Shown: positions 34,556 to 46,465 of the stretch, in pieces
How the letters are laid out: every line of letters begins with the position of its first letter
Position numbering within the stretch: the first letter of the stretch is position 1
From: Fibrobacter sp.
Lineage (GTDB): Bacteria; Fibrobacterota; Fibrobacteria; Fibrobacterales; Fibrobacteraceae
DNA length: 56,866 bases
Assembly (NCBI RefSeq): GCF_017551775.1
Contig: NZ_JAFZKX010000070.1
Coordinates: 1 to 56,866 of the forward strand
Direction: 5' to 3'
The notes under the pieces: generated by a model
The model's database searches: none
Told to the model about the DNA's origin: nothing
What the model saw: the letters and a program-made list of their open reading frames with translations, nothing else
Translations under genes and position numbers: made by a program

Positions 34556-35023
34556 TTAGAGCTTCAGCCGGGATTTGCCGCCGGCGACCCTCTGGTTTTG
34601 CAACTTTTCGGCGCAGGCCTTGTCTTGCCGGAGTATTTTCACGAGCGCGCTGGGTGAAAGCCCGAACGCCGCCGCTGCCGCCTTCGTGTCTCCTGCCTTT
34701 GTCGCCATGATGTCGAATACGTGCGCGACGAACAGCGGGAAAAGCGCATTGGAAGGTTGTATGTGGCCGTTGCTCCCGGGAAACGGAATTTCGGGGTCTG
34801 CGGGCGTTTCGCGGACGTTCAGGGCGATGGCCATCTGCATCCGGTGCAGCGCATGGGTCTTATTTTCCTTCGCGCTCCTCGCTTCGCAGGATTTGATTTC
34901 TAAATTGTATTCACGCAGATTGAGCTGTACGCCGGTGTTGGTCTTGTTGCGGTGCTGTCCGCCGGGGCCGCTTCCTTGGAAGCCCTTCTGGGAACAGGCG
35001 GCGAGCAGTTGGTCCAAAGTCAT
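34556..35023 (-). CDS. Peptide chain release factor-like protein with GGQ motif
   Basis: The 155-residue protein has a complete class I release factor catalytic motif in GFQGSGPGGQHRNKTNTGVQL (residues about 10-30 of this start; the motif spans GSGPGGQHRNK). It lacks the codon-recognition domain. After the GGQ domain it has an extra region with NALFPLFVAHVFD, a helix-turn-helix-like GDTKAAAAAFGLSPSALVKIL and a basic end (GGKSRLKL). It probably rescues stalled ribosomes like ArfB or hydrolyses peptidyl-tRNA in another context. Two in-frame ATGs (35047 and 35023) compete; I chose 35023 because it does not overlap the start of the divergent lipoprotein gene. Confidence 0.8.
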   Translation of the reverse strand: MTLDQLLAACSQKGFQGSGPGGQHRNKTNTGVQLNLREYNLEIKSCEARSAKENKTHALHRMQMAIALNVRETPADPEIPFPGSNGHIQPSNALFPLFVAHVFDIMATKAGDTKAAAAAFGLSPSALVKILRQDKACAEKLQNQRVAGGKSRLKL

Positions 35024-35041
35024 TCTTAGGTAGGTATCGCG

Positions 35042-35776
35042 ATGCATATCTTGAAAAATACAATTGTTGCGGCGTTCACGGTGGCGCTCGCTCTCGGATT
35101 TACCGCCTGTGCGGGTACCGCCGGGCAATCGGGTGAAGGCGCGAAGGCCGCGGAATCGGGCGCAAGTGCCCAGGTAAAGAACGCCCAATACGAGGGCCAG
35201 CAGCAGGACAAGCAGGCCATGCTCGAAACCATGTTCGCGGGTTTCCTTTCCGCGGTTCGCGGGGGCGCTTCTGCCGAGACTTTGTACGGTTACCTGACCG
35301 ATACTTCGGAATACTGGCTCGATACGCTCGAGAACCACGCCAAGGTCTACGATTCCGAGGCGCTCGACACCTGCCTGTTCTACGAGGCCTATTCCATTCT
35401 CCTCTACCGCCTTTACGAGCGAGAACACCTGTGGGAATCCGAAGAAGACCGCATGCTGTTCATGATGCTCAGCAAGAGCGGCATGCTTGACCGCTTGACG
35501 AAGCTGCCGCTCGGCCCCATGAAGGTGAAGAACGACCGCGGAAGCGTCGGACTCCAGAAGAGCCCGGAAGTGCCTATCATGATTTTCGAATGGGATGACC
35601 AGAGCTGGAAACTGAACCTTCCCGAAACTATCCCGCTGATTACGAAGGGAATCGAGTCCATCGCCGTGAAGAAGAATTGGAGCGGAAAGAAACTCGCTCT
35701 CTACTGGATCGAGAAGGAATACCACATGACGTATTCCCGTCTCGACGAGAGCCTGTTCGAACCTCTCGGCTTCTAG
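35042..35776 (+). CDS. Lipoprotein of unknown function
   Basis: The 244-residue product has a lipobox FTAC (Cys23), a Gly/Ala/Glu-rich tether and a helical domain with many aromatic residues (for example CLFYEAYSILLYRLYEREHLW). I recognise no family. AGGTAGG 7-8 nt before the ATG acts as ribosome binding site. The next gene begins 9 nt after its stop, so it is the first gene of a run that leads through another exported protein to the PorU-like peptidase. A link to secretion or surface assembly is a guess from position only. Confidence 0.75.
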   Translation: MHILKNTIVAAFTVALALGFTACAGTAGQSGEGAKAAESGASAQVKNAQYEGQQQDKQAMLETMFAGFLSAVRGGASAETLYGYLTDTSEYWLDTLENHAKVYDSEALDTCLFYEAYSILLYRLYEREHLWESEEDRMLFMMLSKSGMLDRLTKLPLGPMKVKNDRGSVGLQKSPEVPIMIFEWDDQSWKLNLPETIPLITKGIESIAVKKNWSGKKLALYWIEKEYHMTYSRLDESLFEPLGF

Positions 35777-35785
35777 GATTCCCCG

Positions 35786-36649
35786 ATGCGGCTGATTACT
35801 GTACTGCTCCTGCTTGCCTTCGTGGCTGGTTTTGCTGCGCCCGTGAAAGCGGCTACGGCGCCTGCCCGGCTTTTTGGCGCTGTCGATTCTCGTACCGAGT
35901 TTTCCGGCGGGAGGCTCTTTGCCGTATTGGATTCCGTCGGCGGCACGGGCACCTGGATGGAATGGGACGTGAACGGCATTCGCGACCCGTCCGTGATGTA
36001 CATTCTCGACCCGCTTCTGGCCTCATCGAACAAGCCGAAGATGGTCTGGGTGATTTCGGAACGTATCACGCCCCTCATGGCGGTGTTGCTCCCGAAAGGG
36101 TCCGGCGAGGCGCTTGTGTTCTACGAACTTTCGGCCCTCGACGCAAAGCCCGTCCCCCTGCAGATGAACCGCGTGCTTTCGCCCGACGTGGTGTTCCGCG
36201 ACTACAGGCTGGTAGGCGCCTCCGAATTCGTCCACCTGGATAGGCCGAACCTGAGGGTCGTGGCGACGGACAAGACCATCCGTTTTTCGTACACGAACCC
36301 CGATGCCACCCCGCTCCGTTTCGACCGCGATTTCGCGAAGAAGACCGTCGTCGAGAAGAAGAACGAGGTGCGCAACTACCGCGACTTTTTCGATTACGAA
36401 TACGTCTTGATGCTGCGCGCCTTCGTACAGTCGACCCGCGGGCTCTTCAACTGGCAGGCGTGGCACTGGTATATGCCCGCTTTCAATTCTCGCGCTATGA
36501 TTTCGGATGCCGAACTGGAGGCTATTCTCTCGAAGGGAGTGCCCCCGCAGTCGGTCACCATTTTCAAGATGAAGGCCTCCGGAGGCCAATGGGTGGAATT
36601 CAAGACGAACGGGAACGGATTTTACGAAATGGTCATCACCAATCCTTAG
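35786..36649 (+). CDS. Exported protein of unknown function upstream of porU
   Basis: The 287-residue protein has a signal peptide (cut about residue 22, after VKA) and no lipobox. The mature part is beta-rich with short acidic turns and lacks motifs I can place. Towards the end it has FNWQAWHWYMPAFNSRAMIS, rich in aromatic residues. It follows the lipoprotein gene by 9 nt and precedes the porU-like gene by 32 nt. That gap contains a -10-like TATTTT box, so porU may also have its own promoter. Confidence 0.7.
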   Translation: MRLITVLLLLAFVAGFAAPVKAATAPARLFGAVDSRTEFSGGRLFAVLDSVGGTGTWMEWDVNGIRDPSVMYILDPLLASSNKPKMVWVISERITPLMAVLLPKGSGEALVFYELSALDAKPVPLQMNRVLSPDVVFRDYRLVGASEFVHLDRPNLRVVATDKTIRFSYTNPDATPLRFDRDFAKKTVVEKKNEVRNYRDFFDYEYVLMLRAFVQSTRGLFNWQAWHWYMPAFNSRAMISDAELEAILSKGVPPQSVTIFKMKASGGQWVEFKTNGNGFYEMVITNP

Positions 36650-36669
36650 TTTTGGCGGGGCTGTTTTTG

Positions 36670-36675
36670 TATTTT
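36670..36675 (+). promoter_or_regulatory. -10 box directly upstream of the porU-like gene
   Basis: TATTTT is followed by 6 nt (TAGATT) and then the GTG start codon. No ribosome binding site is visible. Confidence 0.4.
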
Positions 36676-36681
36676 TAGATT

Positions 36682-39600
36682 GTGAAGTCTGTTTTTTACA
36701 TAATATCGATTTTATCTCTTTGCGCATCGGCGTTCGCGACCACGGTGGTGGAAGATTCCCGCTCGCGGTTCGTGCTGGATGATGGTGTTCTTGAAACTTC
36801 GATTCACGGCTGCATGGACAGCCTGGGCGGGTTTGTTCCCGGTAATCAGTTCGAACCTGAAAATGCCACGGTGAGCGCCGAGAGCGATGTCCCGTTCCGC
36901 ATATACCGCGTGGCCGTCCCCGCGGGAGCCACGCCCCGTGTTTCTCTCTCTGTCAAGAAGACCAAACCCATGCAGGGAAATTTCTGCAAGGGTGGCAAAC
37001 TGAATTTTTTCCCGGTTTCCGCGTCATCTCCGTACATGCGAGACGGACTGTGGATGGTCGATATCCGCGTCCCCCTGTACGAAAAGGCGGGCGCATCGTT
37101 TAGGCTGCGCACGCAGTACCGCCTTACGGTCGAATTCTCCGTGACCGGTTCGGGTATAAATCCCGGAAAGCGTGCCGTCTCCCGCGTGATGAACGAAAAC
37201 GGCGCATCGCATTTCGGGGTGTCGCGCAACAAGTACCGCAATTCGCTCCGTCGCTCTGCTTCGAGTGACCTTTCCGACGTGCATTTTATCGCGAAGTTCG
37301 TGGTGGGCGACCAGAACGTAGCGGCTACAGGCGAAGACGGTCTCTATGCCCTGGACTTCAAGACTGTCCAGAAGGCGCTCCTGCCTTATTACGCCCTGTC
37401 CGAATTGAACAGTATTCCTGTCGAGAAACTGAGGCTTTTCGGTGCTTCTCCGGATACGATGACGGCTATGGTCCCGGGTCCCGACGTACTTGCGCCCGTG
37501 CACCTGTTCGATATCCCGTTTGAAGTGCGCGACCATTCAAAGAACGGGAACAGCATGAGTCCGGACGGGACCTTCAACGAGGGGGACTCGATTGTATTCG
37601 TGGGCTACGGATCTTCGTACTGGAAACTGGGCGACAGCGCCTACTACCATACCACTTCGCCGTATTCTTTCTATCAGCATTTCCAGCTGGGCTGGAGCGA
37701 CACAGGTAAGGGCAAGCGCCTTAAGGACAAGATTTCGTTCTCGTCTTCGGGCGCGAAGGATGTTCCGCTCATGCGCTATGTCCGTGCGGAGAAAGACGCA
37801 TTCCTGATTGATACCTACTATGGAAAGGAACTGGACTGGGAAAAGAATTCGGGCAAGGAATGGTTCTGGTTCTGGCATTCCAGGATAGACACTACGGTGG
37901 TATCTTCGTCGGAGTTGCTCTACGGGATGCCGCAAATGAAGAATTTGCCGGGTCGTGTTGACGGTGGACAGTCGCTCCTGCAGGTGACTTATTTCCCGCA
38001 TCGTTCTGTCTGGAAGGACCGCATCGAAAATGTAGCCCAGTCCGGAGGAATGTTCCTTTCTGCCGAAGGTATGACGAAAAGGATGGAGGAAGTCCGGTTC
38101 CTGTTCGATGTCAATGGCAAGAAGTATTCTAGGGCTGACGCCACACTCGGTGCCGAAGGGAATTTCTGGATAAAGAACCCTCCGCTGAAGGATTCTGACA
38201 ACGCCTATGTATTGACGATGCTTCCGAACGGCAGACAGTACGACCGATTTGACGGCTTTACTGTGGCGTACCAGTGGACGCCTGTCGTGGACACTGCGGA
38301 ATGGTATTTGCCGGGCCGGGTTTCGGGAAAAATCCGTATGCCGGTTCCTGATGGCGTGAGCCTCATGAAGTTCGTGAATATGGTTCCTGTCGGTGTGCTC
38401 GAGAATTCGGGCAAGTATGCCGTAGACAGCGTTGCCGCCGGCGAGGACGTGCGTTACCTCGCGTACCGCGAAATATTCCGTAATGGCGAGAATCGCAATC
38501 TTATTACGGTGGAGGGCCTGCCGGCCCCGTCTCCCGACGTGCTTTCCGAAATCTCGAAAATCAATTCCAAGACGGAATACCTCATTATAACTCCGCCGGA
38601 GTTTATAGACGGTGCTGTCATGCTGGGCAAGTTCCGTTCGGAGGGGCAGGCCGTTTCCAAGTATGCGACGACGGTCGTGAATGTCGAGGATATCTACCGC
38701 CTGTATACGGGCGGCTCGCTTTCGCCGATAGCCATAAGGAACTATATCGCTTACGCTTATTCCCTGTGCCCCGACCTCAAATATGTGCTTTTGCTGGGTA
38801 CCGGCCATTACGACTATCGAGGCGCAATCGAAAAGCGCGACAAGAATTTCATGCCTCCCTTCGAACTCGAAGACAACGTCACGGAAGACTTCTTCGCGGC
38901 TTTGGATTCCGGCGAAATGGTGCGCTACGGTTTCTACGATTTGGATTTGGCTGTGGGCCGTCTGCCGGTCCGTACGCCCGACGAACTCTCGGACTATATA
39001 GAAAAGGCTAAGGAGTACGAGATGGTCGGACGGTTCGACCATTCTGAATGGCGCAATACGGTTATTCTTGCTGCTGATGATGCCAAGAACGGAACGGAGA
39101 TCGACAAGGCACGACATGCGGAAACGCAGGAACAGGAAATTTCCCAGAGCATAGACAAGCTGGTTGATGAACTCGGTGTTCGCTGGAACCAGAAAAAAAT
39201 CTATTTGCTGGATTACGAGGCGGATGCCGCCGGCCAGAAAAAGGATGCGACTGCGGACTTCTTGAATCTCTTGAACCAGGGTGCCTTGCTTGCAATTTAT
39301 TTTGGACATGGTTCCAAGACGGACTGGGCTTCTGAGGGACTCTTGAAGCCTAGCTACATACCGAGGCTTTCGAATCAGGGGCGTTATACGATTCTCAATT
39401 CGTTCTCTTGTATCGTCGGACGTTTTGATCAGGGCGGGTCGAGATCCTTGTCCGAAGAGTTTGTTGTTGCCCGGTCGGCGGGTTCCATCGTGTCGATAGG
39501 TGCTACCCGCGAGACGTTCGGACAGCAAAACAAGACTTTGGGAAAGAATTTTATATTCGGACTCCTGCGGAATGACGGCATTTCTGTCGGTGATGCATTC

Positions 39601-40797
39601 ATGCAAGCCAAAAACATGAATACTTCGAAATTCCAATCGAAGAATTATGATAACCAGCGTTTCAACAACGAACACTATACCCTTTTCGGTGAACCTCTCA
39701 TCAAGATGCTCAAGAACGGTTTCGATGTGACGCTCGACCAGAAAATCGATACGCTGAAGGCGCTGGACAAGATGAAGCTTTCTGGTTCGGTCAAGGGCAT
39801 GGAAAATGGTACTATTGAACTGTCGTTGCGCGGTGGCCGCAGTTACAAGAATATGTATTTGGGTTTCCAGGTTAACGAAAAAGATGCGACGACGGATTCT
39901 ATTAAGGTTTCTTATGATGGTTCCCTGATTTATTCGGAAAAAATTCCTGTTGTCGGTGGCCGTTACAAGACGGAATTCGTGACTCCTCGCAAGATATCGT
40001 TTGGCGATACCGCAGTGGAACTCAATGCCTGGGCGTATTCCAAGGACGATCGCGAAATCGGGCGTTTCCGGGTTGGCGGCATCTCTATTTCCGGTTTTTC
40101 CTCCTATGCCGATTCGCTTCACGATTCCGAACCTCCGATTATAAAAATCCAGAACTGCTATTCCAAGGGAACGGAATCCTCGTTCTCGGAAGGCGAGACG
40201 GTGAAGTTGCAGGCGCCCGCCTGTCTCCAGGTCGTTGTAGAGGATTCTACGGCCCTCGATTTCCGCGAACAGCCGGATGAAGGCCTGTCCATCGAAATTC
40301 AGGGTGTCGAGAATCCGTACCACCCGTATCCTTTCTTGGAACAGTCTTCCAAGAAGGCGGTTTTCCGCAAAACGTTTACGCTCGAGAATTATCCGGAAGG
40401 TAGCTACCTGTTCCGCGTGCGTGCACTCGATGTGCTCGGGAACATGGCTGTCAAGTCGTTGAATATCGAGATTGCCGAAGACATGAAGGCTGGACTTGCG
40501 GACGTGTTCAATGTCCCTAATCCGGTGGGCAAGAAGGGCACGACGTTCTTCTTCAAGAATCTTGCTGTGGACCGCGAGTCTACGGTGAACATCTTCATCT
40601 ATAACCAGCACGGTCGCCTGGTGAAGGTCATCAAGGATGCTGTTTCGGGCGTTACGCACTGGGACGGCAAGGATAATCACGGACGTAAACTGGCGAACGG
40701 GCTGTACCATTATGTTGTTCGCAGCGAAGTTCCCGCGGTGGGAAATTCTAAGGCGAAGACTTGGACAAAGAAACAGAAACTATTGATTTCGAGGTAA
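36682..40797 (+). CDS. porU: PorU-like C25 (gingipain-family) peptidase, type IX secretion
   Basis: The 1371-residue secreted protein has a signal peptide (cut about residue 19, after AFA), a long beta-rich N-terminal region, a gingipain-type C25 peptidase domain (about 620-1010) and a C-terminal FlgD-like Ig domain (NPVGKKGTTFFF ... VTHWDGKDNHGRKLANGLYHY). The catalytic pair is His876 (YFGHGSK) and Cys910 (NSFSCIVG). PorU is the sortase that removes the C-terminal signal of type IX cargo at the cell surface. The size fits PorU, and the start is GTG. It could instead be a secreted C25 cargo protease, but the long N-terminal region favours PorU. Confidence 0.82.
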   Translation: MKSVFYIISILSLCASAFATTVVEDSRSRFVLDDGVLETSIHGCMDSLGGFVPGNQFEPENATVSAESDVPFRIYRVAVPAGATPRVSLSVKKTKPMQGNFCKGGKLNFFPVSASSPYMRDGLWMVDIRVPLYEKAGASFRLRTQYRLTVEFSVTGSGINPGKRAVSRVMNENGASHFGVSRNKYRNSLRRSASSDLSDVHFIAKFVVGDQNVAATGEDGLYALDFKTVQKALLPYYALSELNSIPVEKLRLFGASPDTMTAMVPGPDVLAPVHLFDIPFEVRDHSKNGNSMSPDGTFNEGDSIVFVGYGSSYWKLGDSAYYHTTSPYSFYQHFQLGWSDTGKGKRLKDKISFSSSGAKDVPLMRYVRAEKDAFLIDTYYGKELDWEKNSGKEWFWFWHSRIDTTVVSSSELLYGMPQMKNLPGRVDGGQSLLQVTYFPHRSVWKDRIENVAQSGGMFLSAEGMTKRMEEVRFLFDVNGKKYSRADATLGAEGNFWIKNPPLKDSDNAYVLTMLPNGRQYDRFDGFTVAYQWTPVVDTAEWYLPGRVSGKIRMPVPDGVSLMKFVNMVPVGVLENSGKYAVDSVAAGEDVRYLAYREIFRNGENRNLITVEGLPAPSPDVLSEISKINSKTEYLIITPPEFIDGAVMLGKFRSEGQAVSKYATTVVNVEDIYRLYTGGSLSPIAIRNYIAYAYSLCPDLKYVLLLGTGHYDYRGAIEKRDKNFMPPFELEDNVTEDFFAALDSGEMVRYGFYDLDLAVGRLPVRTPDELSDYIEKAKEYEMVGRFDHSEWRNTVILAADDAKNGTEIDKARHAETQEQEISQSIDKLVDELGVRWNQKKIYLLDYEADAAGQKKDATADFLNLLNQGALLAIYFGHGSKTDWASEGLLKPSYIPRLSNQGRYTILNSFSCIVGRFDQGGSRSLSEEFVVARSAGSIVSIGATRETFGQQNKTLGKNFIFGLLRNDGISVGDAFMQAKNMNTSKFQSKNYDNQRFNNEHYTLFGEPLIKMLKNGFDVTLDQKIDTLKALDKMKLSGSVKGMENGTIELSLRGGRSYKNMYLGFQVNEKDATTDSIKVSYDGSLIYSEKIPVVGGRYKTEFVTPRKISFGDTAVELNAWAYSKDDREIGRFRVGGISISGFSSYADSLHDSEPPIIKIQNCYSKGTESSFSEGETVKLQAPACLQVVVEDSTALDFREQPDEGLSIEIQGVENPYHPYPFLEQSSKKAVFRKTFTLENYPEGSYLFRVRALDVLGNMAVKSLNIEIAEDMKAGLADVFNVPNPVGKKGTTFFFKNLAVDRESTVNIFIYNQHGRLVKVIKDAVSGVTHWDGKDNHGRKLANGLYHYVVRSEVPAVGNSKAKTWTKKQKLLISR

Positions 40798-40799
40798 TT

Positions 40800-41663
40800 A
40801 TGGATTTGCGTGAAAAACCGGGAAAGGTTCAGAAGTTTTTGGAACTGATGCTGCGCCTTCGCCTGATTTTTGTGGTGCTGATGGTCGTTTTTGGAGTGAC
40901 CCTTGCTGCGTGTGGCTGGCAGACGATGAATTCGCTCCCGCTCGCCGCCTCCGAAGGGCTTGGCATGTGGCTTGTTGACTTGGACGGCTTTGGCGCCTTC
41001 TGGAGCACAGCCCAGTACCTGAGTGTTGTCGCCGTCGCCTTTGTGGTGCTCATGTTCGTGTTCGGAGGGCTGCGTGGTGGCCTCGGCACTATAGCGTCGC
41101 TCGCGTTGTTCGTTACCGCCTTGATGCTTCTTGGCGGTGCCGAGGGTATGCAACTGAAATTCTATGGCGTGTTTGCCGGAGTTGCGCTTGTCCTGTTGCT
41201 CTTCGCCAAGTGGAGTGTCGCCTGTGCGCTATTCCCGTTCGCGCTTTCGTGGGCCTTGATGACGGGCTTTATTGCGTGCTTCCCGATGGTTCCCGGTAAT
41301 GCGTGGCTCGTGTGGGCGGTGCTGAGCGCCGTCGGGTTTGCAAGCGTCGTTTCGTTCGCGCTTGTCGCAGGCAAGGAACTTTCCGAGGGTGCGCCCCAGG
41401 CGGGAGCGCTCGTGAAGGCGGGCCGCAAGATGTTCACGCCCGTGCTGGTATCGTCGCTCTTGGCTGTCGCTGCAATTACGGTCGATATGGGGAACGCCTC
41501 GGCTAGGGAAATTGCGGGCGCCGCAGTCCTGTGGGTCGCGTTCGTAATCTGGTTCTTCGGGTTTACGCTCGGCACGATGGCTTTCTGCCCGTGGGAACGC
41601 CTCCGCGCAGGTTCCCGCCGCGTCCAGATGAAGGACAAGAAGAAAAAATCTTCCAAAAAATAA
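40800..41663 (+). CDS. Polytopic membrane protein of unknown function
   Basis: The 287-residue protein has about eight hydrophobic helices between residues 18 and 265, a short amphipathic N-terminus and a very basic C-terminal tail (KDKKKKSSKK). I recognise no family. The start is placed at ATG 40800, with GAGG 8 nt before it; the open frame reaches back to a TTG at 40761 inside porU. It begins 2 nt after porU stops, so co-translation is likely and a role in type IX secretion is conceivable. Confidence 0.75.
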   Translation: MDLREKPGKVQKFLELMLRLRLIFVVLMVVFGVTLAACGWQTMNSLPLAASEGLGMWLVDLDGFGAFWSTAQYLSVVAVAFVVLMFVFGGLRGGLGTIASLALFVTALMLLGGAEGMQLKFYGVFAGVALVLLLFAKWSVACALFPFALSWALMTGFIACFPMVPGNAWLVWAVLSAVGFASVVSFALVAGKELSEGAPQAGALVKAGRKMFTPVLVSSLLAVAAITVDMGNASAREIAGAAVLWVAFVIWFFGFTLGTMAFCPWERLRAGSRRVQMKDKKKKSSKK

Positions 41664-42920: not shown

Positions 42921-44714
42921 CTACTTCTTGCTGATCGTCGCGATGACGTGTTCCGCACCGAAGTTCGGGATGCCGATGGCGGTGAGGAATTTGCTCAGCG
43001 TGTGTTCGCTCTGGAAACTGATGTTCTCGATGCGGAACCCTTCCTTTTTGCAGAGTGTGTAGAAGTCCTTCACCGTCAGGAGGCGGATGTTCGGCGTATC
43101 GTACCACTCGTAAGGCAGTTCCTTCGACTTGGGCATGCGACCATGGAGCATGAGGCTTCCGCGGGTGGTCCAGTGGCCGAAATTCGGGAACGTGACGATG
43201 GCCTTCTTGGCAACGCGCAACAGCTCGTTCAGGAGCGCCACGGGGTCGCGGATTTCTTGAATCGTGCGGTTGATAATCGCGTAGTCGAAACTATTGTCCT
43301 TGAGGTCCGTGATGCCGCGGTCGTCGAGGTCGCGCTGGATGACCTGCACGTCCTTCTCGATGCAGTCCAGGATTCCGGTGATGTTCTTTTCGATGCCAAA
43401 CCCGGTCGCCTGCTTCTTGTGGGCGAGGTAGTCTAGCAAGTCACCGCTGCCGCAACCGAGGTCGAGCACGTGGCTGCCTTCCCTCACGAGTTTGCCGAGC
43501 AGCTTGAAATCGCTCTCCTCGTGGAACACGGGTACGGCCTGCGTGCCCTGTTGCGGGATAATCTTGGAATCCAGGAAACGGCCCACGGCTTTGCCGAGTT
43601 CGCCCACTTCGATGAGGAACCCGTCGTGACCGAACTGCGTGTCGAGTTCGAGGCTCGTGACGGACTTGCCCACGTTCAAAAGCGCGCTCGTGATGCGGCG
43701 GCTTTCGTGCGGCGGGAACAGCCAGTCGGTCGAAAGGTTCACGTTCAGCACTTCGGCCTTGATGTCCTTGAAGGCGTTCTCGATGCTGCCGTATTCGGTC
43801 TCGAGGTCGAACGCGTCGGTCGCATGCGCAATATGCAGGTAGCTGTTCGCGTCGAAACGGTCCACGAACTTCTTGCCCTGGTAACGCAGGTAGCTTTCGA
43901 TGGGCAGGTTCAGATCGAACGGGGTCGAGTACGTGACGGCGTGGTTCTTGTTCTCCTGCGCTTGGGCGCGCTTGAACTTCTGCTCCATGCCGATGGCCGA
44001 AAGGTAAGTGATGTGGGCGAGCTTGCGGGCGTTCGCGAGGCCTACGTCGGGTCTTTCCGCCTTGTCGTAGAAGTCACCGCCGTTGTAGTTCGGGTCCTGC
44101 GTGATGACGTCGCGGGCAACCACTTCGAAACCGAGCGCCTGGCTCGAGAAGCGCGGGGAACTCGCGATGATCACGATGCGCTTCACTTGTTCGGGGTAGT
44201 AGATGGCCCACTTCATGGCCTGGAATCCGCCCATGGAACCGCCCATGACGCAGTAAAATTCCTTAATGCCGAGGCCGTCGGCGAGTTCCTTCTGGGCGTG
44301 CACCATGTCGCCGATGGTGATGGTGGGGAAGGTGCTCCCATAGGGTTTGCCCGTGCGCGGGTTGATGGTTGCAGGGCCTGTGGTACCCTTGCAGCCACCC
44401 AGGATGTTGCTGCAGACCACGAAGAAGCGGTCCGTGTCGATTGCCTTGCCGGGGCCGATGAGTTCGTCCCACCAGCCGGGCTTCTTGTCGCTTTCGGTGT
44501 ACCAGCCGGCGGCATGCGCGTCGGCGGTGAGCGGCGAGCAGACCCACACCGCGTTGTCGGCAGCCGCGTTCAGCTTGCCGTAAGTCTCGTAACGGATGGT
44601 AAGCGCCGGAAGCGTCTTACCGTTTTCCAGCACAAAACCGGCCTCGCCATAGTCCTTGACGTAGTCCTTCGGCTCAACGGGGCCGATGCTGGATTTATGC
44701 GAATATTCACTCAT
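42921..44714 (-). CDS. metXW: Homoserine O-acetyltransferase MetX fused to methionine protein MetW
   Basis: One frame of 597 residues encodes two proteins that are normally separate. Residues 1-385 are the alpha/beta-hydrolase MetX with Ser160 in MGGSMGGFQ, Asp330 in STDWLFPPHE and His363 in QFGHDGFL. Residues 395-597 are the methyltransferase-like MetW with VLDLGCGSGDLLDYL. MetX acetylates (or succinylates) homoserine for methionine synthesis; MetW is needed with it in many bacteria. The ATG at 44714 is 7 nt after a TATATT box (44722-44727), so the mRNA may be leaderless; ATG 44720 is the alternative. No frameshift or internal start is evident. Confidence 0.92.
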   Translation of the reverse strand: MSEYSHKSSIGPVEPKDYVKDYGEAGFVLENGKTLPALTIRYETYGKLNAAADNAVWVCSPLTADAHAAGWYTESDKKPGWWDELIGPGKAIDTDRFFVVCSNILGGCKGTTGPATINPRTGKPYGSTFPTITIGDMVHAQKELADGLGIKEFYCVMGGSMGGFQAMKWAIYYPEQVKRIVIIASSPRFSSQALGFEVVARDVITQDPNYNGGDFYDKAERPDVGLANARKLAHITYLSAIGMEQKFKRAQAQENKNHAVTYSTPFDLNLPIESYLRYQGKKFVDRFDANSYLHIAHATDAFDLETEYGSIENAFKDIKAEVLNVNLSTDWLFPPHESRRITSALLNVGKSVTSLELDTQFGHDGFLIEVGELGKAVGRFLDSKIIPQQGTQAVPVFHEESDFKLLGKLVREGSHVLDLGCGSGDLLDYLAHKKQATGFGIEKNITGILDCIEKDVQVIQRDLDDRGITDLKDNSFDYAIINRTIQEIRDPVALLNELLRVAKKAIVTFPNFGHWTTRGSLMLHGRMPKSKELPYEWYDTPNIRLLTVKDFYTLCKKEGFRIENISFQSEHTLSKFLTAIGIPNFGAEHVIATISKK

Positions 44715-44721
44715 ATGCATA

Positions 44722-44986: not shown

Positions 44987-46465
44987 ATGCGCTTAGGACT
45001 TCAATTCCCGTTTGTTCTGCTGGCGTTCGCGCTTCTGGCCGCCTGTAGTGACGACTATTCCAGTCAATTGCATTGGCCGGGCGAGGACGACTTGTATTCA
45101 AGTGAAGAAGATTCGTTTTCTACTGAAGTCGAATCCTCGTCGAGTGAAAAATCCTCCAGTAGCAGCGCGGCGAAATCATCCAGCAGCGAAACGAAGACTT
45201 CTTCTTCGAGTTATTTCAAGGAAAATTGGAATTATTTGAATCCGGAAATCAGCTATGGCGAAATGACGGATTCCCGCGACGGCCAGATTTACAAGACGGT
45301 GGTGATTGGCACGCGGAAGTGGATGGCTGAGAATCTGAACTTCGAAACGGAGAACAGCTCGTGCTTCAATGATTCCCTTGAAAGCTGTGGAATGTACGGA
45401 CGACTCTATACTTGGACCGCTGCTATGGATACCGCTGGCGTTTTCAGTACGGATGCTATTGGCTGTGGACACCCTAAAGATAATCCCTGGACAGTGTCTT
45501 GCGAGGCTTCCAGTAATGGAGATTATGTTCGTGGCGTTTGTCCGGAAGGCTGGCATTTGCCTCATTACGAAGAATGGAGGGCTTTGATTCTTGCGGGTAA
45601 CAACCCGGTTGTACCGGGAAAAGCTCTTAGGTCGATGGAAGGCTGGGACGATGGAGTTGGTAATGGTACGGATGAGTTTGGTTTTTCTGCAATTCCTGTT
45701 CCCGTGGGGGGGCATAGCGCGGAATTTTGGACGCCAGGGATAGGGGAATCTGGTCCGGTCAGTGAAACTGTTATGCATCGAGTTTTCGAAAACGATCGCT
45801 CGTCTAGCCGCAAATTATCGGTCCGTTGTGTTAGTGACGATACGATTGCTGTATCCAGTAGCAGCGGATCCTCCAGTAGTAACTGTGAACCGAACATGAC
45901 TCTTTGCAAGACAGAATCGGAAGACAACTGCGAGTATGAATCCTTGACCGATGATCGTGATGGCCGCGTTTATAAGACTGTAAAATTAGGGTGTAAGTGG
46001 TGGATGGCGGAAAATCTTGCTTTTGAAACAGAACATAGTTTTGAAGGAAAATATGGCCGGTTGTACGAGTGGGGCGCGCTGGCGGAAGCCTGTCCGTCCG
46101 GATGGCACGTCTCGATGGTGGATGAATGGTATGGCCTGAATAGTAGGGTGGGACGAGAGTTTGGAAATTTGTCTGTACTCAAGTCTACAACCGGATGGAA
46201 GGTGGATTCTAGCCGTGTTGATGATGAGGAATGGGACGGAAATGGCAATGGAACGGATGGTTTGGGTTTCTCTGTTTTCCCGGATGGTTATGTGTATGCC
46301 GGAGAACGGTCCGCTCGGCATTATAAAGTCGGAGAAAACGCCAGTTTTTGGATGGTTGATTATTTTCAGTCAGACGTGAACGTTGAGGTCTTTTACGTTT
46401 ATGGGGTAGATGAAACGTATACCTCAGACCCATACGCATTCTCAGTCCGTTGCGTGAAGGACTGA
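44987..46465 (+). CDS. Lipoprotein with two FISUMP domains
   Basis: The 492-residue lipoprotein has a lipobox LAAC (Cys20), an acidic tether and a Ser-rich linker (residues about 45-75). Two FISUMP domains follow: the first from DGQIYKTVVIGTRKWMAENL (about 100-285), the second from DGRVYKTVKLGCKWWMAENL (about 325-490), separated by a second Ser-rich linker. Both contain CPEGWHLP/CPSGWHVS, FGFSA/LGFSV and the final SVRCV strand. FISUMP proteins are a hallmark of Fibrobacter and are exposed on the surface; their function is unknown. GGGGGAT precedes the ATG. Confidence 0.93.
   Translation: MRLGLQFPFVLLAFALLAACSDDYSSQLHWPGEDDLYSSEEDSFSTEVESSSSEKSSSSSAAKSSSSETKTSSSSYFKENWNYLNPEISYGEMTDSRDGQIYKTVVIGTRKWMAENLNFETENSSCFNDSLESCGMYGRLYTWTAAMDTAGVFSTDAIGCGHPKDNPWTVSCEASSNGDYVRGVCPEGWHLPHYEEWRALILAGNNPVVPGKALRSMEGWDDGVGNGTDEFGFSAIPVPVGGHSAEFWTPGIGESGPVSETVMHRVFENDRSSSRKLSVRCVSDDTIAVSSSSGSSSSNCEPNMTLCKTESEDNCEYESLTDDRDGRVYKTVKLGCKWWMAENLAFETEHSFEGKYGRLYEWGALAEACPSGWHVSMVDEWYGLNSRVGREFGNLSVLKSTTGWKVDSSRVDDEEWDGNGNGTDGLGFSVFPDGYVYAGERSARHYKVGENASFWMVDYFQSDVNVEVFYVYGVDETYTSDPYAFSVRCVKD

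Follow-up and report, generated by a model that had tools for sequence, protein, structure and literature searches.

A probable RND-like membrane protein gene is the old companion of the PorU-type sortase candidate of Fibrobacterales

The gene directly downstream of porU in Fibrobacter, here termed C, forms an old pair with porU, and the four-gene row in which both now lie is a young operon built around that pair. C most likely encodes a relative of the RND permeases with a predicted fold like that of one RND half and no porter domain; the relation to RND is supported by profile comparisons. The explanation that we tentatively prefer, with slightly less than even confidence, is that C is an RND-half inner-membrane helper of the anchoring performed by PorU. 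For the anchoring of type IX cargo outside Bacteroidota, C offers a concrete candidate gene, specifically for the step of acceptor supply. Of the three unassigned genes in the row, A and B are recent neighbours and poor candidates, while C is an old companion with a likely identity.

The window, meaning the whole 56,866-nucleotide stretch of Fibrobacter sp. DNA that was analysed, belongs to a genome of 3.2 Mb that is 98.4% complete. The row and the gene divergent from it are organized as follows.

34556-35047, minus strand: RF-1-like gene (release-factor domain; PF00472, 38.9 bits against a cut-off of 35), divergent from A
35042-35776, plus strand: gene A, exported; lipoprotein of unassigned fold and old neighbour of the RF-1-like gene
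35786-36649, plus strand: gene B, exported; alpha/beta protein without a known fold
36682-40797, plus strand: porU, GTG start; PorU-type C25 peptidase and candidate type IX sortase, with His876 and Cys910
40800-41663, plus strand: gene C; probable RND-like polytopic membrane protein without a porter domain, the steady partner of porU

The four genes of the row share the plus strand and are separated by 9, 32, and 2 nt, so that the first-pass annotation, which described two exported proteins before porU and a polytopic protein after it, was exact in its coordinates. It was equally correct that A, B, and C have no known family, as none of the three produced a match over cut-off in Pfam or NCBIfam, only weak sub-threshold ones. 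The listed open reading frame of C begins at TTG 40761; we place the start at ATG 40800 because the N-terminus is conserved, with Asp or Glu at position 2 and Arg at position 4 in 58/58 aligned rows. Scanning for promoters and terminators gave a signal no greater than in shuffled sequences. For comparison, 150 Fibrobacterota genomes were drawn: 94 from the window's family (f1), two from the other family of the order Fibrobacterales (f2), and 54 from outside the order. Labels beginning with G and L denote sampled genomes and loci, g1 is the window's genus (Fibrobacter), and other g and f numbers are further genera and families.

The PorU-type protein is probably a type IX sortase that cuts and anchors surface proteins, as judged from its sequence relationships. 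Features in common with Porphyromonas gingivalis PorU (MEROPS C25) include the C25 domain (PF01364, E 8.1e-72), the catalytic pair of GHG His876 and Cys910, which is kept in 22/22 aligned PorU relatives, the match to P. gingivalis PorU itself (PDB 6za2, E 1.5e-25), and a sub-threshold C-terminal match of the CHU_C/FlgD-like type. Unlike P. gingivalis PorU, however, the protein falls below the equivalog cut-off of the NCBIfam T9SS_sortase model (NF033707; 372.9 vs 420 bits). It is the single C25 match in its genome, where a profile search also identified SprA, and where 63 matches to the C-terminal sorting domain (CTD) occur, 43 of them over cut-off. In Bacteroidota, porU and porV adjoin; here, in contrast, the two PorV-family genes over cut-off both lie on other contigs than porU. 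In P. gingivalis, PorU removes sorting domains by cleavage and attaches the product to A-LPS, which PorZ supplies (PMC8754138, PMC11285876). Proteomics of F. succinogenes S85 suggests that cellulases bear type IX tails that get cleaved, and in the model proposed for this species the cellulases are T9SS cargo bound to lipid A; the passages on CTD cleavage name no enzyme (PMC6851124). The PorZ model gave no match over cut-off in 60 Fibrobacterota genomes, a result that does not establish absence as partial matches are common. In the genome of the window, the match is confined to model positions 589-742 of 757, and sub-threshold matches in some outer-family genomes extend to other parts of the model (for example, 120-720 in G021).

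Comparison of named loci establishes that the row is not a chance arrangement. The distance from the end of porU to C is 2-9 nt in 42/42 of these loci, including one (L112) where the contig end truncates C, which is known there from a tblastn match, and B and A are present in 40/42 and 38/42, respectively. The misses fall either at contig ends (L099 without A, L107 without A and B) or in other genera (L115 without A, L116 without A and B). Within f1 but outside Fibrobacter, PorU is encoded directly before C in 10/12 porU loci (L022, L025-L027, and L029-L034, representing eight genera and picked from search matches, thus a non-random set). The two exceptions are L036 (g7), which is without the porU-C arrangement, and L037 (g11), which ends shortly past porU with C not seen.

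The genes flanking the pair vary by genus. The order is simply porU-C in g4, g5, and g10, SppA-porU-C-MDH in g8 and g9, DHODH-y-PDZ/thioredoxin-B-porU-C in g2 and g6, and A-B-porU-C in g3 and g1, except in the g3 genome G114, whose B has a different gene in front of it (L032) and whose A is found on a separate contig, at its end (L055). In g8 and g9, DHODH-y-PDZ/thioredoxin-B-VanZ occupies a site apart from porU. These neighbour genes were identified by Pfam for the g8 proteins and the g2 PDZ/thioredoxin protein and by likeness for the others, including the g8 MDH. The two f2 genomes are arranged as SppA-porU-RND-C (G091) and porU (cut)-RND-C-MDH (G088), with the intervening gene matching PF00873 at E 6.4e-95 and 2.5e-82, respectively. 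This ACR_tran permease shares its row with C but, unlike C, is a full permease of 856 residues, and no permease of its type was detected at E <= 1e-30 among the 94 f1 genomes, with up to six candidates scored per genome. B joined the porU row later, from the DHODH/PDZ-thioredoxin neighbourhood, and A joined last. The PorU tree fits this sequence of events: g8/g9 branch first within f1 (support 91/97 and 81/77), followed by g7/g11 and then by the groups (g5,g4,g10), (g6,g2,g3), and g1, the order among these three being unsettled, as is the placement of the outer rows on their long branches. Outside the order, 22 porU loci were scanned with local profiles; none showed an adjoining C, RND, A, or B, though several are cut by contig ends. 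In two of these 22 an SppA-like (S49) gene directly precedes porU, namely in genus g14 of f3 (L122, 4797-10068) and in f5 (L125, 3978-9171). The same gene lies before porU in L033, L034, and L038, which extends its occurrence to f2 and two basal f1 genera; the Fibrobacter row is without it.

The same gene orders bear on the possibility that C acts in the envelope independently of type IX, with porU-C an operon inherited and maintained solely for co-expression. We regard this alternative as quite conceivable though not the one toward which we lean. In 10/10 g7 and g11 genomes that have C, the gene resides on a different contig from the listed porU, which in two of these genomes is one of two C25 genes, and in G127 (L035) C appears by eye between a thioredoxin-reductase-like gene and panC. 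The gene after C in g9, in G088, and, by likeness, in g8 is MDH, a plain metabolic gene. Such a passive association is opposed by the uniformly tight spacing of porU and C in the named loci and by the persistence of their order through eight other genera, in contrast to A, B, SppA, and MDH, which are variably present.

The ties of B and A to PorU so far rest on recent co-location. B, with a Sec-type signal discerned by eye, follows the PDZ-thioredoxin gene in four other genera. Its predicted structure is of high confidence (pLDDT 91.5); fold comparison returned no convincing match (best Z 4.5), Pfam searches with 14 members nothing convincing, and a profile search against PDB sequences nothing credible. 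A profile search of A against PDB sequences was similarly without a credible match. A carries a lipobox-like Cys23 that is invariant in six aligned rows and has, by eye, an NTF2-like look. Its start codon is part of the palindrome ATGCAT (35042-35047), which on the opposite strand is the start codon of the RF-1-like gene, so that both proteins begin with Met-His and no intergenic DNA separates the genes. This arrangement holds in 47/49 loci in which the two genes were both identified (L040 and L050 are the exceptions). The count leaves out loci where A has no RF-1-like gene within the same stretch (for example, in g7, f3, and f5), and many of the 47 are from Fibrobacter; the arrangement spans seven genera, g1-g6 and g9. 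The shared start accounts for A retaining the RF-1-like gene as its neighbour and places the signals of A within that gene. In f5 and f3 (L041, L052, and L053), A comes after a gene for a protein of approximately 785-815 residues, the L041 copy of which weakly matches TPR and C39-like models. Apparent fusions of A (916 residues) and B (506 residues) in G091 were rejected by eye as over-long frames in GC-rich DNA; the real genes begin inside these frames, each with its own signal peptide.

A first suggestion of the identity of C comes from its predicted structure. The protein of approximately 287 residues is mostly helical in the AlphaFold2 model (pLDDT 82.6, pTM 0.82), with about eight hydrophobic segments read from the hydropathy profile and with invariant residues M1, L3, R4, E15, R19, R21, L22, and P264. 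In a VIA-align comparison, the best 50 of 544 PDB matches with Z >= 2 were all RND proteins, with Z from 12.5 to 9.7 over 171-208 aligned residues. They include MexY (12.5), AcrB (12.0), HpnN (11.9), MmpL4 (11.7), and SecDF (10.7) as well as Dispatched, NPC1, and Patched. The matched ranges of these chains cover one RND half together with its porter domain. Among the Foldseek matches listed, an Mce1 chain was placed first (probability 0.30), and MmpL5 and Dispatched had the highest probabilities (0.96 and 0.95) at weak E-values of 0.3-0.5, the best for an RND protein being 0.34.

As a Z below 13 in helical models can reflect a common helix arrangement alone, sequence-based comparisons were added. 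An alignment of 17 C sequences was compared in hhalign with 14 RND proteins, two of them identified as ACR_tran by Pfam and the rest by BLAST to one of those two, and yielded a score of 47.6 (probability 69%) at the end of the second RND repeat. Omitting the f2 rows (19 f1 C sequences) gave 41.5 (probability 40%). Lower values were obtained from the best of 40 block shuffles (33.1), the best of 40 column shuffles (24.1), reversed sequences (18.6 and 16.9), and the alignments of A (16.7) and B (13.7). Across 26 groups of polytopic reading frames from the collected loci, RND scored 49.4 while 23 others reached at most 21.6, 16 of these 23 being single sequences and some spurious frames; the remaining two groups contain C itself. 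RND scores of 41.5-49.4 thus compare with control scores no higher than 33.1. When C was aligned to the first RND repeat instead, the score (31.6) fell within the shuffle range, and this alignment was discarded as evidence. Pfam models for RND, MMPL, and SecDF had no match over cut-off in 19 C sequences, and a sequence profile search of the PDB with C retrieved no chain.

Collectively, C resembles the RND permeases (AcrB/MexY, HpnN, MmpL, SecDF, and Dispatched) in a possible one-half fold suggested by comparison of its model, in the profile similarity to the last part of the second repeat, and, outside Fibrobacter, in an acidic residue within the helix matching TM4/TM10. It differs from them in comprising one half only, in the missing porter domain, in about eight hydrophobic segments rather than six, in the lack of a Pfam match, and, within Fibrobacter, in the loss of that acid. 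The two additional hydrophobic segments and the lack of a Pfam match could be read to mean that C has some other helical membrane fold that resembles RND, as might the best VIA-align Z lying within the range flagged for helical bundles and the weak Foldseek E-values. We consider this unlikely, as the best 50 of the 544 structural matches belong to one superfamily, the profile score beats 80 shuffles and the 23 polytopic groups (with the mentioned single and spurious members), and an RND gene adjoins C in f2.

The candidate acid is at residue 182 of C, which in the hhalign register is placed directly behind the Asn of the TM10 'N-d' consensus, in the column that corresponds to the proton-relay Asp of TM4. 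In the weaker first-repeat alignment, itself within the shuffle range, residue 182 meets the second Asp of TM4. Asp or Glu occupies this position in 16/16 rows from outside Fibrobacter (13 distinct) and in 0/42 Fibrobacter rows, among which some genomes may be represented twice and one row has a title that gives no rank below Fibrobacterales. The C protein of the window has Ser182 and thus no acid at the TM4 proton-relay place. This distribution looks like that of an RND-derived protein that kept the relay-place acid outside Fibrobacter and lost it inside.

Building on the observed gene order, its conservation, and the PorU catalytic residues, we propose that C would reside in the inner membrane and assist the anchoring step of PorU. 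It may act as an oligomer, in f2 beside a full AcrB-family RND permease, and would move or hold an amphiphile, plausibly the lipid acceptor that PorU joins to cleaved substrates. C may be proton-driven where position 182 is acidic, whereas in Fibrobacter, which has lost the acid, it may serve as a passive channel or scaffold. With no PorZ over cut-off in the 60 genomes, though with frequent partial matches, an inner-membrane RND-like protein retained beside the sortase could fill the step of acceptor supply; lipids or lipidated molecules are what MmpL, HpnN, and Dispatched move. Counting against this proposal are the separate contigs of C and porU in g7 and g11, the Mce1 chain placed first by Foldseek and its weak E-values, the VIA-align Z below 13, the lack of a Pfam RND match and of a PDB chain by profile, the eight rather than six hydrophobic segments, and the first-repeat score inside the shuffle range. 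A broader form, in which the Fibrobacterales sortase is tied to a dedicated RND-type module that supplies acceptor or energy and has become non-pumping in Fibrobacter, is a speculative extension that we rate as rather doubtful; our literature searches found no report of an RND-type module for anchor acceptor or energy in type IX systems.

The distribution of the three genes defines how far they can be considered parts of the type IX machinery. SprA matched in 150/150 sampled genomes (144 over cut-off), including all 54 from outside the order, and C25 in 148/150, compared with 100 genomes for A, 91 for B, and 96 for C (one C dismissed). At E <= 0.01, C profile matches occurred in 93/94 f1 genomes and in the two f2 genomes; a further match, in an f12 genome (G033:C158), was dismissed as weak and partial (E 0.005). 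In f2, the match in G088 is genuine and that in G091 misplaced (G091:C96), being situated by eye in a nuo-like region, with the real C located after the RND gene (L038). B was found in 89/94 f1 and both f2 genomes and, at E <= 0.001, in 0/54 genomes outside the order, while A was found in 92/94 f1, 1/2 f2, and 7/54 outside genomes, with no porU beside A in three 8-9 kb stretches checked there. A scan for the N-terminal motif of C, covering one genome from each of 84,980 species and liable to miss remote forms, returned 52 matches, 42 of which were confirmed, all titled Fibrobacter, Fibrobacteraceae, or Fibrobacterales; the nearest named C, from F. succinogenes isolate RUG11683, is 99% identical (the window's own record was possibly excluded). 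Convincing matches to C thus occur in the order Fibrobacterales only, to which the gene is, by this measure, specific.

As A, B, and C are found in only part of the SprA-bearing genomes, none is a phylum-wide type IX part. The first-pass suggestion of phylum-specific components therefore survives in that the genes are unnamed, lineage-restricted, and seen only alongside type IX genes, but not in its phylum-wide scope. The co-occurrence that it anticipated is partial, with C alone steady by porU, and its refuting case, these genes in a genome lacking a type IX system, did not arise, an outcome that carries no weight because SprA matched in every sampled genome. That all three genes are phylum-specific parts of the type IX machine is very improbable, for although they were seen only in genomes also matching SprA, the 54 SprA-bearing genomes outside the order are without B and C (the weak C match having been dismissed), 47 of them are without A, and A and B adjoin unrelated genes in other genera.

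Several further features lie near the row. The product of the minus-strand frame at 33164-34414 matches the lamin-tail domain below threshold (PF00932, 30.1 bits vs 34.3). Downstream, a single minus-strand frame at 42921-44720 joins MetX homoserine O-acetyltransferase (residues 26-385) to MetW (residues 403-573) in a natural fusion, and the plus-strand frame at 44987-46465 encodes a FISUMP (TIGR02145) protein that matches the model in two stretches and contains Ser-rich linkers.
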